From NCBI GenBank assembly GCA_031270845.1, contig JAISXF010000001.1, positions 1 through 37,567 on the forward strand: a stretch of 37,567 bases of DNA, written 5' to 3'. A program made the translations under genes and the position numbers. Every line of letters starts with the position of its first letter. Positions within the stretch are counted from its first letter, which is position 1. This DNA comes from Prevotellaceae bacterium (GTDB lineage Bacteria; Bacteroidota; Bacteroidia; Bacteroidales; UBA932). Shown one piece after another: positions 10,184-36,077 of the stretch. The notes beneath the pieces were generated by a model. It saw only the letters and a program-made list of their open reading frames with translations, made no database searches and was not told the DNA's origin.

Positions 10184-11119
10184 CTATTCAATGATAAACG
10201 TTACCGTCTGGCGGTCTTTGTATTTGCCCTTGCCGTGGACAGTACAGGAAGCATTGCCGGGTTTGATATTCTTATTGAAGGTCAGGTTAAAGTCCTTGCC
10301 GAGTTCGAGCTTCTCCTCCTCAGTGTCCGACACCGGGTAATACACGTTGGGCAGCGGCGTAATAGCCAACCCTGTATATGCCTGATGGGGAATATCATCA
10401 AGGCGGGCATGGGCTATATTGTGCTTCGCGCGGTGGAACTCCTCATTGAGACGCTCAATTTCGCCGTTGAGCGTGCCGATGAAAGTAATCATACCCTGGT
10501 TCCCCGTGATGGAGTAGGCATCCGCGACCGTAGTAATCTTATGATAAACACCCTCGATGCCTTTACGCACGACAGGGAAGGTGTCCTCCGGCTTCTGGTT
10601 CTCAATGAGCGAGCGCTGCGCAAGAAGCCCGCGAAACTCGTTGAACGCCGAGTTAATATTCGCCACCAGCGTACCTACTCCCAGCGTCGTAACGGCCGCC
10701 GCATAGTCCCCCTGCAAGTGCGTGAGAATGGCGCGTATGTCACCCGACTGGTCATCATACGACTTGCTATACACCTTGCCATAGCTGTGCAGCATGTTAT
10801 ACAACGACGTCGCCGCCGCAGCAACAGGCGCGCTTGTACTGTATTCGAGCGCGCGTGCCTGCATGTTCAGCGCCACCAGCGTTCTGTCGAGCTTGGTGTC
10901 GGTCTGGGCTATCTGCACCGTCAGCACGCTGCGGCGCACCCACTCCATGAGCGCCAGCTCCCGCGCCAGCCAGCCGTTGAACTCAACGGTGAGGGGCGCC
11001 AGAATTTCCCGCACCGGTTCGGTGGCGGCGGTAATCATAGCGGCTACATACGCGCAATAGTCATAATGAGCGGCATTAGGAAGGTTCTTAAAGAGAAGAG
11101 CATTGAATGTTGTGTTCAT
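10184..11119 (-). CDS. DUF6261-like protein, paralog 1, with C-terminal Ig-like module
   Basis: Same architecture as 35118..36077: helical N-terminus, RKGIEGVYHKI, then AYTG...LGKDFNLTFNKNIKPGNASCTVHGKGKYKDRQTVTFIIE. Confidence 0.75.
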   Translation of the reverse strand: MNTTFNALLFKNLPNAAHYDYCAYVAAMITAATEPVREILAPLTVEFNGWLARELALMEWVRRSVLTVQIAQTDTKLDRTLVALNMQARALEYSTSAPVAAAATSLYNMLHSYGKVYSKSYDDQSGDIRAILTHLQGDYAAAVTTLGVGTLVANINSAFNEFRGLLAQRSLIENQKPEDTFPVVRKGIEGVYHKITTVADAYSITGNQGMITFIGTLNGEIERLNEEFHRAKHNIAHARLDDIPHQAYTGLAITPLPNVYYPVSDTEEEKLELGKDFNLTFNKNIKPGNASCTVHGKGKYKDRQTVTFIIE

Positions 11120-20043: not shown

Positions 20044-20907
20044 ATGCCATTGATATTTCATTATTTCTCCTTAGTCAAATTCTCGCACACAGTTTTTGCG
20101 CTGCCCTTTGCGTGTATTGGTTTTGTGTTGGCGTATGCGCAGACGGATGCAGTATTTGCATGGCGCACACTGGTGCTGATGCTGCTGTGCATGGTGTTTG
20201 CCCGCAACACGGCGATGAGCTTCAACCGCTATGCCGACCGGCAATTCGACGCCCGCAACCGGCGCACCGCCAATCGCGAAATACCGCGCGGCATCATCAC
20301 GCCGCGACGGGCGCTACTGTTTTGCATAGCCAATGCGGCGCTGTTCGTCGTCGCTGCCGGATTGCTCAATCGGTTATGCCTGTATCTGTCGCCGGTGGCG
20401 TTGGGAGTGATTGTGGGCTATAGCCTGACCAAACGCTTCACGTGGGGATGTCATCTGATTTTGGGAGCAAGCCTTGCTATTGCACCAACAGCCGCTTATA
20501 TCGCGGTAACCGGAACGATTGCTTTGCCGCCGGCATTGTTTTCCGCCATAACGCTTTTTTGGGTTAGCGGATTCGACGTTCTCTACGCTCTGCCCGACGA
20601 AACATTCGACCGGCAGGAAGGGCTGTTCTCCATCCCCGCCCGCTTTGGCCGGTGCCGTGCGATGGGCATTTCAGCCGTACTGCATGGGGTAGCCGCCACG
20701 CTGGTAGCGATAGCCGGATGGGCGTTGCAGGCGGGGATTTTGTACATCGCCGGCGCGACGTTGTTTTGCGGGTTGCTGCTCTACCAGCATCTCATAATAA
20801 AACCTTCCGATTTAAGCCGCCTGAATGCCGCCTTTGCCACAACCAACGGGCTGGCCAGCATCGTATTTGCAATTTTGGTAATCCTTGAATTGACTATTGA
20901 CTATTGA
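20044..20907 (+). CDS. UbiA-family prenyltransferase (4-hydroxybenzoate / MqnP-like)
   Basis: NTAMSFNRYADRQFDARNRRTANREIPRG; DVLYALPDETFDRQEGLFSIPARFG; multi-TM. Confidence 0.88.
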   Translation: MPLIFHYFSLVKFSHTVFALPFACIGFVLAYAQTDAVFAWRTLVLMLLCMVFARNTAMSFNRYADRQFDARNRRTANREIPRGIITPRRALLFCIANAALFVVAAGLLNRLCLYLSPVALGVIVGYSLTKRFTWGCHLILGASLAIAPTAAYIAVTGTIALPPALFSAITLFWVSGFDVLYALPDETFDRQEGLFSIPARFGRCRAMGISAVLHGVAATLVAIAGWALQAGILYIAGATLFCGLLLYQHLIIKPSDLSRLNAAFATTNGLASIVFAILVILELTIDY

Positions 20908-20944
20908 CTATTGAATATTCCTGCGGGGATGAAATCATCTATTG

Positions 20945-29298: not shown

Positions 29299-29329
29299 TT
29301 TGAAAGTTGAATGATTATATGTAACTTTG
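29299..29329 (+). promoter_or_regulatory. Bacteroidetes sigma promoter for cutC (TTTG-N19-TAACTTTG)
   Basis: TTTG 29299-29302, 19-nt spacer, TAACTTTG 29322-29329, ATG at 29353. Confidence 0.7.
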
Positions 29330-29352
29330 TAACCGCATATAAACAAAAAAAG

Positions 29353-30069
29353 ATGTTACAACCAATAAAAAACGATAAACGGCAGCTCGAAATCTGCACT
29401 TACTCCGTAGCGGGCTGCATCGCGGCTCAAAGAGGCGGCGCCACGCGTGTTGAGCTATGCGCCGGCAGGCACGAAGGCGGCACGACGCCAAGCTACGGCA
29501 CTATCATCTCTGCCCGAAAATATATCGACATCGACCTGCATGTGATGATTTGCCCGAGAGGCGGCAATTTTGTATATACCAGGCAGGAATTGCAAGTTAT
29601 GAGCGACGATATTCAACTGGCGAAGCAATGCGGCGTCAATGGCATCGTCATTGGCTGCCTCACGGCGGAGGGCGACGTGGATATGAACGCCTGCCGTCAG
29701 CTGATACGGGAAGCCTCCCAGATGTCGGTAACTTTTCATCGCGCCTTCGACGAGTGTCGCGAGCCGGAAAAGGCGCTGAAGGATATTATTGCTCTGGGAT
29801 GCCACAGGCTATTAACTTCGGGGCAGCGCCCGGCGGCCGAAGAAGGAATCCCGCTGCTGCGGGAGCTGGTAGAGCAGGCGAAGGATAAAAACGGATATCC
29901 GCGCATTATCGTCATGCCCGGAAGCGGTATAACACCCGGCAACATTGCCGAAATTGCCCGAATGACCGGTGCGCAAGAATTCCATACCTCGGCACGGGCT
30001 ACGCCCGAAGGTGATGCACATGCCGACATAATAGCCCAATGCATAAGAGAATTGAATTTTTTATATTGA
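29353..30069 (+). CDS. cutC: CutC family protein (copper homeostasis protein CutC)
   Basis: LEICTYSVAGCIAAQRGGATRVELCAGRHEGGTTPSYG; VMICPRGGNFVYT; MPGSGITPGNI. Confidence 0.94.
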   Translation: MLQPIKNDKRQLEICTYSVAGCIAAQRGGATRVELCAGRHEGGTTPSYGTIISARKYIDIDLHVMICPRGGNFVYTRQELQVMSDDIQLAKQCGVNGIVIGCLTAEGDVDMNACRQLIREASQMSVTFHRAFDECREPEKALKDIIALGCHRLLTSGQRPAAEEGIPLLRELVEQAKDKNGYPRIIVMPGSGITPGNIAEIARMTGAQEFHTSARATPEGDAHADIIAQCIRELNFLY

Positions 30070-30140
30070 ATATTTTATCTTTTAATATTTAATATAAAAA
30101 ATTATTATTGATGATTACCCATTAACTACATCCTATTATT

Positions 30141-32930: not shown

Positions 32931-33806
32931 ATGGTAAAATCAATGACAGGTTACGGGAAGGCCGAACGTGCCGTGGAAAAGAAAAAAATAAAAGTCGAGC
33001 TGCGGTCGCTCAACAGTAAGGCGCTTGATATAACATTCAAGATGCCTGCACATTATCGTGAAAAGGAAAACGCATTGCGCACCTCTCTGACGCGCGTCGT
33101 GCAACGCGGTAAGGTGGAAGTCCTGATAACACTCGCCGACGAGGACGCGGAGGCGCCGGCAACGCTGAACAGACAACGGTTTGTGGCGTATTACAGACAG
33201 ATTGATTCACTGCTTCAGAGCATTGGGTCGTCGGCAAAAAAAGAGCGGGTGGCGCAAGTCATCCTGCGATTGCCCGAAGTGATGGATACGTCGTCCACAG
33301 AAGTGCCTGATACGGAGTGGGACACATTGTTGCTCTGCCTGCAGGAGGCGCTCACCGACTTCGACCGTTTTCGGGAGGACGAGGGGCGTGCGCTGCTTGC
33401 CGACATCCAAATGCGGGTTGACCGGATAGTGGATCTGCTCGCGAGCGTCAGTAAGTTTGAGCAGCAACGCATTGAGAGCGTCAGGCAGCGCATCGGGGGG
33501 CTGCTGACAACCATCGGGCAGCCGTCATACGACAAAAACCGGTTCGAGCAGGAACTGCTGTATTACCTTGAAAAAATTGACATTACGGAAGAGAAGATAC
33601 GCCTCGTTCAACACTGCAAATATTTTATGCAAACGATTGAGGAGGGCGCGGGCGTCGGACGGAAATTGGGGTTTATCGCGCAAGAGATGGGGCGTGAAAT
33701 AAACACCCTCGGCTCAAAAGCCAATCAGGTTGACATCCAGAAATTGGTGGTGCAGATGAAGGACGAGTTAGAGAAGATGAAGGAACAAATTTTAAACGTT
33801 CTATGA
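32931..33806 (+). CDS. YicC family endoribonuclease-like protein
   Basis: MVKSMTGYGKAE...ELRSLNSKALDI; C-terminal AQEMGREINTLGSKANQVDIQKLVVQMKDELEKMKEQILNVL. Confidence 0.95.
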   Translation: MVKSMTGYGKAERAVEKKKIKVELRSLNSKALDITFKMPAHYREKENALRTSLTRVVQRGKVEVLITLADEDAEAPATLNRQRFVAYYRQIDSLLQSIGSSAKKERVAQVILRLPEVMDTSSTEVPDTEWDTLLLCLQEALTDFDRFREDEGRALLADIQMRVDRIVDLLASVSKFEQQRIESVRQRIGGLLTTIGQPSYDKNRFEQELLYYLEKIDITEEKIRLVQHCKYFMQTIEEGAGVGRKLGFIAQEMGREINTLGSKANQVDIQKLVVQMKDELEKMKEQILNVL

Positions 33807-34561
33807 CGACGGCAGACATCAAACAGATAAAATCATTAGGCCAGAAGAAGTCCCGCGACGCGGCGCATCTTTTTACAGTAGAAGGCGATAAGATGATTCA
33901 CGAGCTGCTTGAGTCGGCATTTGAAATCCGCCGGCTGGTGGTTACCAAACCGCTTACATGGGGCGGAAAGCAGGCGGCGGCGGAGGTCGTTAACGAGGCC
34001 ACAATGAAGCGCCTGAGCCATCTCACGACGCCGACATCGGCGCTGGCGGTAGTCGCGCAGCCGGTGCGGGCGCCGTACCCTGCGATTGGCAACAACGAGC
34101 TGGCGCTGGCGTTAGACCATATTCAAGACCCCGGCAACCTCGGAACGATTATTCGCACAGCCGACTGGTTCGGCATTCGCCACGTCGTATGCTCGCCCGA
34201 CACGGTCGATTGCTACAGCCCGAAGGTGGTGCAGGCGACGATGGGCGCGATATTCCGCGTGCCTGTGTATTACACCGCGCTGCCCGATTTTTTACGGAAA
34301 ACCGCGCAGCAGATGCCCGTATATGGGGCTTTTTTAGACGGCGCCAATGTTTACCGTACGCCGCTGACAACCGGCGGAGTTATTGTCATCGGCAACGAAA
34401 GCAAGGGCATTTCGGCGGCGGTGGCCGACGCGGTGCGGCATCGGCTGCTGATACCGTCGTTTCCCGAAGGGAGCCGGGCGTCGGAGTCACTGAATGCAGC
34501 AGTGAGCGCCGCCATTATATGTGCCGCTTTCAGGAACAGATTTTTGACAATAGACTTTTAG
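33803..34561 (+). CDS. SpoU/TrmH-family RNA methyltransferase
   Basis: DHIQDPGNLGTIIRTADWFGI; VIVIGNESKGIS; IPSFPEGSRASESLNAAVSAAIICAAFRNR; overlaps the yicC stop by ATGA. Confidence 0.93.
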   Translation: MTTADIKQIKSLGQKKSRDAAHLFTVEGDKMIHELLESAFEIRRLVVTKPLTWGGKQAAAEVVNEATMKRLSHLTTPTSALAVVAQPVRAPYPAIGNNELALALDHIQDPGNLGTIIRTADWFGIRHVVCSPDTVDCYSPKVVQATMGAIFRVPVYYTALPDFLRKTAQQMPVYGAFLDGANVYRTPLTTGGVIVIGNESKGISAAVADAVRHRLLIPSFPEGSRASESLNAAVSAAIICAAFRNRFLTIDF

Positions 34562-34789
34562 ACATTAGACAGATGCAACGATTTTTAGACAATAGACTTT
34601 TAGACATTAGACAGATGCAAAAATTTTTAGACAATAGACTTTTAGACATTAGACAGATGCAACGATTTTTTGACAATAGACTTTTAGACGTTAGACAGAT
34701 GCAACGATTTTTAGACAATAGACTTTTAGACATTAGACAGATGCAAAGATTTTTAGACAATAGACTTTTAGACATTAGACAGATGCAAC
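34539..34789. repeat. Array D: six tandem repeats of 42 bp (first copy 41 bp)
   Basis: GATTTTTAGACAATAGACTTTTAGACATTAGACAGATGCAAC; units start at 34539, 34580, 34622, 34664, 34706 and 34748; the first overlaps the trmH-like stop. Confidence 0.98.
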
Positions 34790-34800
34790 GATATTTATTC

Positions 34801-35020
34801 AATCCCCCGCTTCGGCTTTGGCGTCGAAAAGTTCGGGACGCCAGCCGAAAATTCGGACGGCGTGTTGCAAAGTTCGACACGCCAGCCGAATTTTCGGCTG
34901 GCGTGTCGAAAAGTTCGGCAAACGAGCCGAAAATTCGGACGGCATGTCGAAAAACGCACCATACGAGCCGAAAATTCGGCTGGCGCGTTGCAAACTTCAA
35001 CAGTCGAGCCGAAGCGGGGG
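34801..35020. repeat. Array E: ~4-5 copies of a 41-bp palindrome-containing repeat, bounded by inverted repeats
   Basis: Units at ~34820, 34861, 34902, 34943 and 34984; core CCAGCCGAAWWTTCGGCTGG; flanks CCCCCGCTTCGGCT (34804-34817) and exact reverse complement AGCCGAAGCGGGGG (35007-35020). Confidence 0.93.
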
Positions 35021-35117
35021 AATTGATAACGCCGGCAGCAGGATGAAACCAACCGCAGGATGAAACGATGAAACAAATTACAGAATAAAAATATAACAGG
35101 TTAAATTATATAAAACA

Positions 35118-36077
35118 ATGAACAGGATTAAAGCTATTTATTTCAGTTATCTTACCGCAGAAATACACGGTAGTTTTCTGGTCGGTTTCCGCGAACTGCT
35201 CGATGCGTCGCCGGAAATCAAAAGCTTGATTGTCGAACTGTATCCGTCGTTTGTCGAACGGTTAGACAGGGAAATCGAGCTGATTCGTGTGATGAAAATG
35301 AGCGAATACACAAAGTATATCGCGGAAGCCGACAAGCGTATCGACCGCTGCTTCACGGGCATAAATAAGGTTGTGTCGGCAGCGTTGCACCACTTCAACC
35401 CGCTAATGATAGACGCCGCACGCAGTATCGACGCGTTTTGCAGAAGCCACGGAGATGCTCGCCGGAAAAGCTACATGGGTACGCTTCTGACAGCAAACAT
35501 GATTATCGAGAAGCTTCGCAGTCCGCAATATGCAGAAAAGGCCGAACTAATAGGCCTCACGCCATGGGTTGCCGAACTTGCCGACGCATCGGCCGTCTTC
35601 GACGTATTGATTCAGGAACGTATGACCGAGTCGGCTAACAAGCCGAAGGGGCGTCTCCGCGATGTCCGCAAGGACACTGAGGCAGTCTATTCTAAAATTA
35701 TCGATTACATCAACGCGGCGGCGATAGTCGGCAGTAATCCTGCCGTGTTCGACGATTTTATCAACCGCGTCAATACCAATATCGGTTATACCCACGAGCA
35801 ACACTACCGCGGCGCCCGTAAAGATATAGGTGCGGCAGGCGCGCTGACGGTGGAAATGATACCGCCGCAGCCGTTTACAGGAAACCCCGTAACGGTTGTT
35901 CCGTCGGTCAACTACCGGCACGCGACCGCCGACGGAGACACCCTCACCCCACTTTTTTTGGGGCAGGACTTCACGGTCGCGTTCCGTAACAACACAAGCC
36001 CCGGCACCGCCGCCATTATCATCAGCGGTAAGGGCAAGTACAGCGGGAAAAAAATTGTTACCTTTACGATAAAATAA
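35118..36077 (+). CDS. DUF6261-like protein, paralog 2, with C-terminal Ig-like module
   Basis: VRKDTEAVYSKIIDYINA..., then PFTGNPVTVVPSV...LGQDFTVAFRNNTSPGTAAIIISGKGKYSGKKIVTFTIK, parallel to 10184..11119. Confidence 0.75.
   Translation: MNRIKAIYFSYLTAEIHGSFLVGFRELLDASPEIKSLIVELYPSFVERLDREIELIRVMKMSEYTKYIAEADKRIDRCFTGINKVVSAALHHFNPLMIDAARSIDAFCRSHGDARRKSYMGTLLTANMIIEKLRSPQYAEKAELIGLTPWVAELADASAVFDVLIQERMTESANKPKGRLRDVRKDTEAVYSKIIDYINAAAIVGSNPAVFDDFINRVNTNIGYTHEQHYRGARKDIGAAGALTVEMIPPQPFTGNPVTVVPSVNYRHATADGDTLTPLFLGQDFTVAFRNNTSPGTAAIIISGKGKYSGKKIVTFTIK

Follow-up and report, generated by a model that had tools for sequence, protein, structure and literature searches.

Repeats that run over the ends of genes have been described in several groups of bacteria. 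Direct repeats of the heptamer TAACTGA occur in marine Beggiatoaceae, Cyanobacteria, and some Bacteroidetes, where they overlap the ends of ORFs and cap them with stop codons, and longer arrays of mixed heptamers are found in some Bacteroidetes (MacGregor 2015, PMC4679880). Heptameric repeats are also known from Xanthomonas (GGGAATC), in which they overlap some stop codons on the coding strand, and from Nostoc (GGGGA(T/C)T) (Rehm et al. 2015, PMC4692102), whereas REP palindromes of the GTAG and CGTC families are located near the 3′ ends of genes and sometimes inside reading frames (PMC3733652). With these precedents, particularly those of Beggiatoaceae and Xanthomonas, the overlap of repeats with gene ends that we describe here is already known in kind. 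As far as our literature search reaches, the novelty lies in the sequence of the family, in its 42-bp unit and inverted arms, and in the rescue of a reading frame by a one-base deletion.

The window (the whole stretch of DNA that was analysed, 37,567 nucleotides) contains a tandem array, array D, at the 3′ end of a gene for a SpoU/TrmH-type RNA methyltransferase, hereafter trmH (Table 1). Array D belongs to a dispersed repeat family, referred to here as the AGAC family. Two traits of heptamer-type repeats that overlap gene ends were found in this family: its clusters are intergenic (none of 82 lies inside a called gene), and its arrays supply stop codons (16 of 70). Like the TAACTGA repeats, AGAC repeats are intergenic, may have a 7-nt element, are patchily distributed among relatives, and provide stops in forward frames. 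They differ from them in sequence (the words of array D are TTTTAGAC, AATAGAC, and ATTAGAC, not TAACTGA), in the spacing of their words at 7–8 nt, and in the presence of 42-bp higher-order units, inverted arms, and one open forward frame; in addition, the TAACTGA repeats lie mostly just upstream of start codons. The GGGAATC and GGGGA(T/C)T repeats resemble the AGAC family in being intergenic repeats of heptamer type that are few between divergent genes, can be arranged in inverted orientation, and lie <50 bp from a stop codon on the coding strand, some of them overlapping it, but their sequence is unrelated and they can form G-quadruplexes. REPs and the Rickettsia palindromic elements are likewise dispersed, extragenic, close to 3′ ends, often paired in inverted orientation, and in some cases placed within reading frames, whereas the AGAC family has no shared fixed-length unit, grows in tandem, and was found with no Y1 transposase. 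No match to the RAYT profile (Y1 transposase, PF01797) was obtained in the genome under study (G000), a draft of 116 contigs that is 84.8% complete, which leaves room for such a gene in the remainder; six of eight genus relatives likewise gave no match. Mobilization of the AGAC family by a REP/RAYT system was rejected on the lack of PF01797 in G000; a short palindrome of conserved length and sequence was likewise not seen in the family.

Table 1. Positions of the features discussed in the text (numbered from the first nucleotide of the window).
Feature	Positions	Strand	Remarks
UbiA gene	20044–20907		array region 20889–20919; ends ...ELTIDY-stop from an ATTGACT array; relatives ELLL-stop or similar
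CutC gene	29311–30069		array region 30051–30095; ends ...ELNFLY-stop from a 14-bp array
SpoU/TrmH-family RNA methyltransferase CDS (trmH/rlmB-type)	33803–34561	+	252 aa; stop TAG at 34559–34561
Overlapping open frame	34189–35046	+	285 aa, with RFLDNRLLDIRQMQ repeats; not called as a gene; frame that trmH would enter without the deletion
Array D	34539–34797	+	42-bp units; TRF: 6.2 copies, 94% matches; belongs to the dispersed intergenic AGAC family
Unit 1 of array D	34539–34579	+	41 nt, one A deleted; GATTTTTGACAATAGACTTTTAGACATTAGACAGATGCAAC; established by listing the units and translating the frames
Repeat-derived 3′ end of the CDS	34539–34561	+	completes the last Arg codon of the core and encodes FLTIDF plus the stop
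G+C-rich element	34796–35035		41/82-bp repeats within a 23-nt inverted repeat; separate from array D and directly after it

The unit of array D is composed of the words TTTTAGAC, AATAGAC, TTTTAGAC, and ATTAGAC plus AGATGCAACGA, with the words spaced alternately at 7 and 8 nt. Unit 1 is identical to unit 6 apart from one absent A after TTTTT. Unit 2 differs from unit 1 both in possessing this A and in ending with A instead of C; in unit 4, a T occupies the place of this A. The first nucleotide of the array is also the second base of the codon for the last core Arg of trmH (34538–34540), and the repeat fully encodes FLTIDF and the stop only, the translated C-terminus reading ...AAFRNRFLTIDF-stop. 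The original prediction, which assigned the last 23 nt of the CDS to the first unit of the array, was thus borne out, as these nucleotides are exactly the coding part of unit 1; the loss of an A relative to the second unit was also found, but it is not the sole difference between the two.

The SpoU_methylase domain (PF00588) was matched at residues 100–240 of the trmH product with 111 bits (curated cut-off, 29.7; E = 6.5e-32), the substrate-binding domain PF22435 was also matched in the CDS, and the codon score of the CDS is 47.6. The product scored below the NCBIfam equivalog cut-offs for both RlmB (TIGR00186, 80.9 vs 160 bits) and TrmH (NF008295, 30.5 vs 227); it is thus a predicted SpoU/TrmH methyltransferase by domain and is assigned to neither equivalog. 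In approximately 80 distinct Bacteroidales relatives, the core of the protein ends in E-F-R-R-R or a similar sequence, followed by 0 to 11 variable residues. This core end coincides with the start of array D, i.e. the repeat starts exactly at the limit of conservation of trmH. The trmH products of seven genus relatives share 58–65% identity with that of the window and can be aligned in their cores to residue 244–250; their tails are RRGIRD, RRRAKYPVTMFNK, RRRNIPVIR, and others (also given as GIRD, AKYPVTMFNK, and NIPVIR), and neither an LTIDF-like tail nor an array at the end of trmH was present in any of the seven. As the closest relative compared for this gene shares 65% protein identity, the 3′ end that trmH of the window had before any invasion is outside the view of this comparison. 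The yicC gene directly upstream of trmH is kept in the genus relatives, and the DNA that follows trmH varies among them. Judging from their isolate codes, the near relatives (MAGs) are probably termite-gut bins, and the window bacterium is probably a termite-gut bacterium.

A strict motif of the family (TTTTAGACNNTAGACTTTNAGAC, one mismatch allowed) was found at 47 sites in G000, at one site in G001 (other G-numbers likewise denote genomes of relatives), and at none in 58 other genomes, and its reversed-pattern control gave no sites. The inspected loci of the family lie between genes, and the A that is absent from unit 1 is present, as part of TTTTAGAC, in most copies. The census was based on approximately 257 kb unselected for the motif (contigs 1–20 and the window) plus loci chosen for the motif; its gene calls are the codon-scored ORFs of this analysis, and some arrays at contig ends may be truncated. 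The 82 AGAC clusters identified in the fetched G000 stretches form 70 arrays once merged, and no cluster was found in shuffled sequence, in 59 kb of G008, or in 120 kb of G001. Opposite-strand neighbours within 250 bp of each other are arranged in the order TAGAC then GTCTA in 21 of 22 cases, and nine of these 21 inverted pairs flank a terminator-like hairpin core (GGGCGAAC/GTTCGCCC). Hairpin cores with T runs are present at other loci of the family, and both arm and core lengths vary among the inverted loci. The AGAC family is a dispersed and essentially species-private intergenic family; on the simplest reading, it would have arisen by a recent private expansion.

Besides trmH, 15 genes end in or beside arrays of this family. 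The 16 arrays in the fetched loci that hold or abut a stop codon all do so on the same (TAG) strand, and the stops comprise 13 TAG and 3 TGA codons, vs 71 TAG codons in 365 genes (Fisher p = 7e-8). This bias arises because the motif holds TAG and TGA, and it therefore indicates that the repeats supply the stops; it is not evidence of selection preferring them. In G000, the GH31 gene ends ...FELRQ-stop (...FERIGER-stop in genus relatives), the OstA-like gene ends ...KTIEHRQ-stop (...ERINSGKK-stop in genus relatives), and the LuxR-type gene ends ...DMEP-stop followed by an array (...DMDEA-stop or longer tails in genus relatives). Different arrays are present at the same stops in other genomes, namely a TGAAGTA heptamer array at the LuxR-type gene of G001 and an 8-bp array at the OstA-like gene of G003, so that such overruns recur with different repeats. 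In the 257 kb unselected for the motif, in which 192 genes were called, of the 98 arrays 14 include a stop codon and seven a start codon, and intergenic tandem arrays are sparse between divergent genes; with this proportion of stops in unselected arrays, the genus is a good place to measure the rate at which gene ends are rewritten. These loci make a clear bacterial case of repeat turnover altering protein C-termini and stop codons.

Whether the array was seeded from the 3′ end of trmH or invaded the gene and supplied its C-terminus and stop had been left as alternatives by the original prediction. Because the motif is private to the species, at many dispersed intergenic loci and nearly absent from the genus, and because the tails of the relatives are unrelated and free of arrays, the array most likely ran into trmH and was not seeded by it; family copies elsewhere that possess the A missing from unit 1, and other genes that end inside family repeats, point the same way. 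Growth polarity into the gene is thus the most likely reading of the sequences, short of proof. Had RFLTIDF-stop been the ancestral native end of trmH and been duplicated downstream to form the array, most later units would need an inserted base that the seed lacks, and at dozens of unrelated loci copies of the motif possess the A absent from unit 1. An RFLTIDF-like end without repeats, which would speak for such seeding, is absent from the genus, with a partial exception in G041 of another genus, whose trmH ends RRFMKSDFH with no array. This best tail match scores 17, a value reached by random tails in 0.6% of simulations (p approximately 0.006). The sister genome of G041 (G058) has no tail and all genus relatives lack one of this kind, so that seeding would require several losses, and the tree groups trmH of the window with G008 and G004, whose tails differ from that of G041. 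A homologous tail common to G041 was thus rejected despite its p-value, the likeness being treated, without certainty, as coincidence, and we regard an origin of the array in trmH itself as improbable. The further notion that gene end and array match by chance was also rejected and carries a negligible probability, because no more than one indel and one or two substitutions separate the 41-nt unit from its neighbours and because arrays of this family hold or adjoin the ends of 15 further genes.

Read in its three forward frames, the ideal unit yields TAG in two and an open sequence, FLDNRLLDIRQMQR, in the third. Without the deletion, trmH would join this open frame and gain approximately 162 residues, running to 35046, whereas with the deletion it reaches TAG after six residues. 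The overlapping 285-aa frame was rejected as a real repeat protein, since it has no NCBIfam match and is surpassed by trmH in codon score, and annotators should treat it with caution as unlikely to be a gene. The locus is most informative for the rescue of its frame by the one-base deletion, which depends on a single base in a draft genome available as an assembly only, in which misassembly could account for both the deleted base and the copy number. If the missing A were a sequencing or assembly error, the true protein would carry the repeat tail of approximately 162 residues; the repetitive nature of the region and the openness of the frame through six units and the following element fit such an error, but unit 1 borders unique coding sequence and the frame as assembled agrees with the usual short tail of the trmH family, which makes an error quite unlikely.

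We therefore favour, with a probability of approximately 0.78, a history in which the family of array D grew to the end of the trmH core, overwrote the tail and the stop, and was capped by the deletion. Array D belongs to the species-private family of short intergenic repeats with AGAC words 7–8 nt apart and may have expanded by local duplication, presumably through replication slippage. Growth would have proceeded up to the core protected by selection (...AxFRxR), replacing the variable tail and the native stop, and at the point of contact trmH would have read into the single open frame of the array. Loss of one base from unit 1, after the invasion and at the junction of gene and array, would then have moved trmH to a TAG-bearing frame, leaving the short and probably harmless tail FLTIDF. 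As two of the three forward frames of the motif contain TAG, overruns would usually be capped within a few codons; the one-base deletion at trmH may be read as an internal record of how a run-on frame was capped.

The array may instead have been retained for a function, either as part of a 3′ mRNA structure or terminator or as a length-variable C-terminal switch. The inverted arms formed by family members elsewhere, in part around the hairpin core, are consistent with this, as is the very strong fold of the G+C-rich element after array D (−133.3 kcal/mol, z = −11.7). However, neither a GTCTA partner nor a terminator match was found for array D itself, with no G+C-rich hairpin plus T run counted as an intrinsic terminator in 34400–35200, the relatives have no array at trmH, and the FLTIDF tail lies outside the SpoU_methylase domain, so we consider retention for a function unlikely. 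The G+C-rich element is surrounded by the arms of inverted repeat I4 (34795–34817 and 35007–35029); it was rejected as a member of a structured RNA family, as only sub-threshold matches were obtained. Two DUF6261 paralogues are encoded in the window (10184–11119 on the minus strand and 35118–36077 on the plus strand), and long tandem arrays are located near each of them.

In the three genomes sampled from the genus (G000, G008, and G001; stretches L119–L138 and L159–L178), tandem arrays occur at a density of 38 to 42 per 100 kb, approximately 10 times that in other families (4 to 5). In G000, the periods of 77 of 98 arrays are multiples of 7. Among arrays with at least three copies and a period of at least 10, 25 have a period of 21, nine of 42, and three of 63, while one has a period of 22 and none has a period of 20. 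The units are unrelated between loci. Palindrome arms of at least 6 were found in 15 of 37 units of 20–22 bp in G000; palindromic 21-mers were rejected as a source of array D, as its unit contains no long palindrome (best arm, 3). Slippage has been suggested, in a general way, to favour 7 nt (work cited in a passage of PMC4692102), and our literature search returned no work on arrays of 21 bp or on repeats of Bacteroidales from termite guts. It is conceivable, though doubtful, that a dedicated process of the genus makes arrays of any sequence with an exact 7/21-bp step and renews intergenic DNA so rapidly that gene ends are replaced again and again and closed by stops carried in the repeats, the array at a given gene end differing from species to species.

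Two further genes in the window, UbiA and CutC, derive their last residues and stop codons from 7/14-bp arrays. At approximately 1475–1500 of stretch L003, an AGAC array (reverse strand, ATGTCTCAAAAA) apparently borders on the start codon of an RNase H-like gene, suggesting that 5′ ends of genes may be overrun as well.
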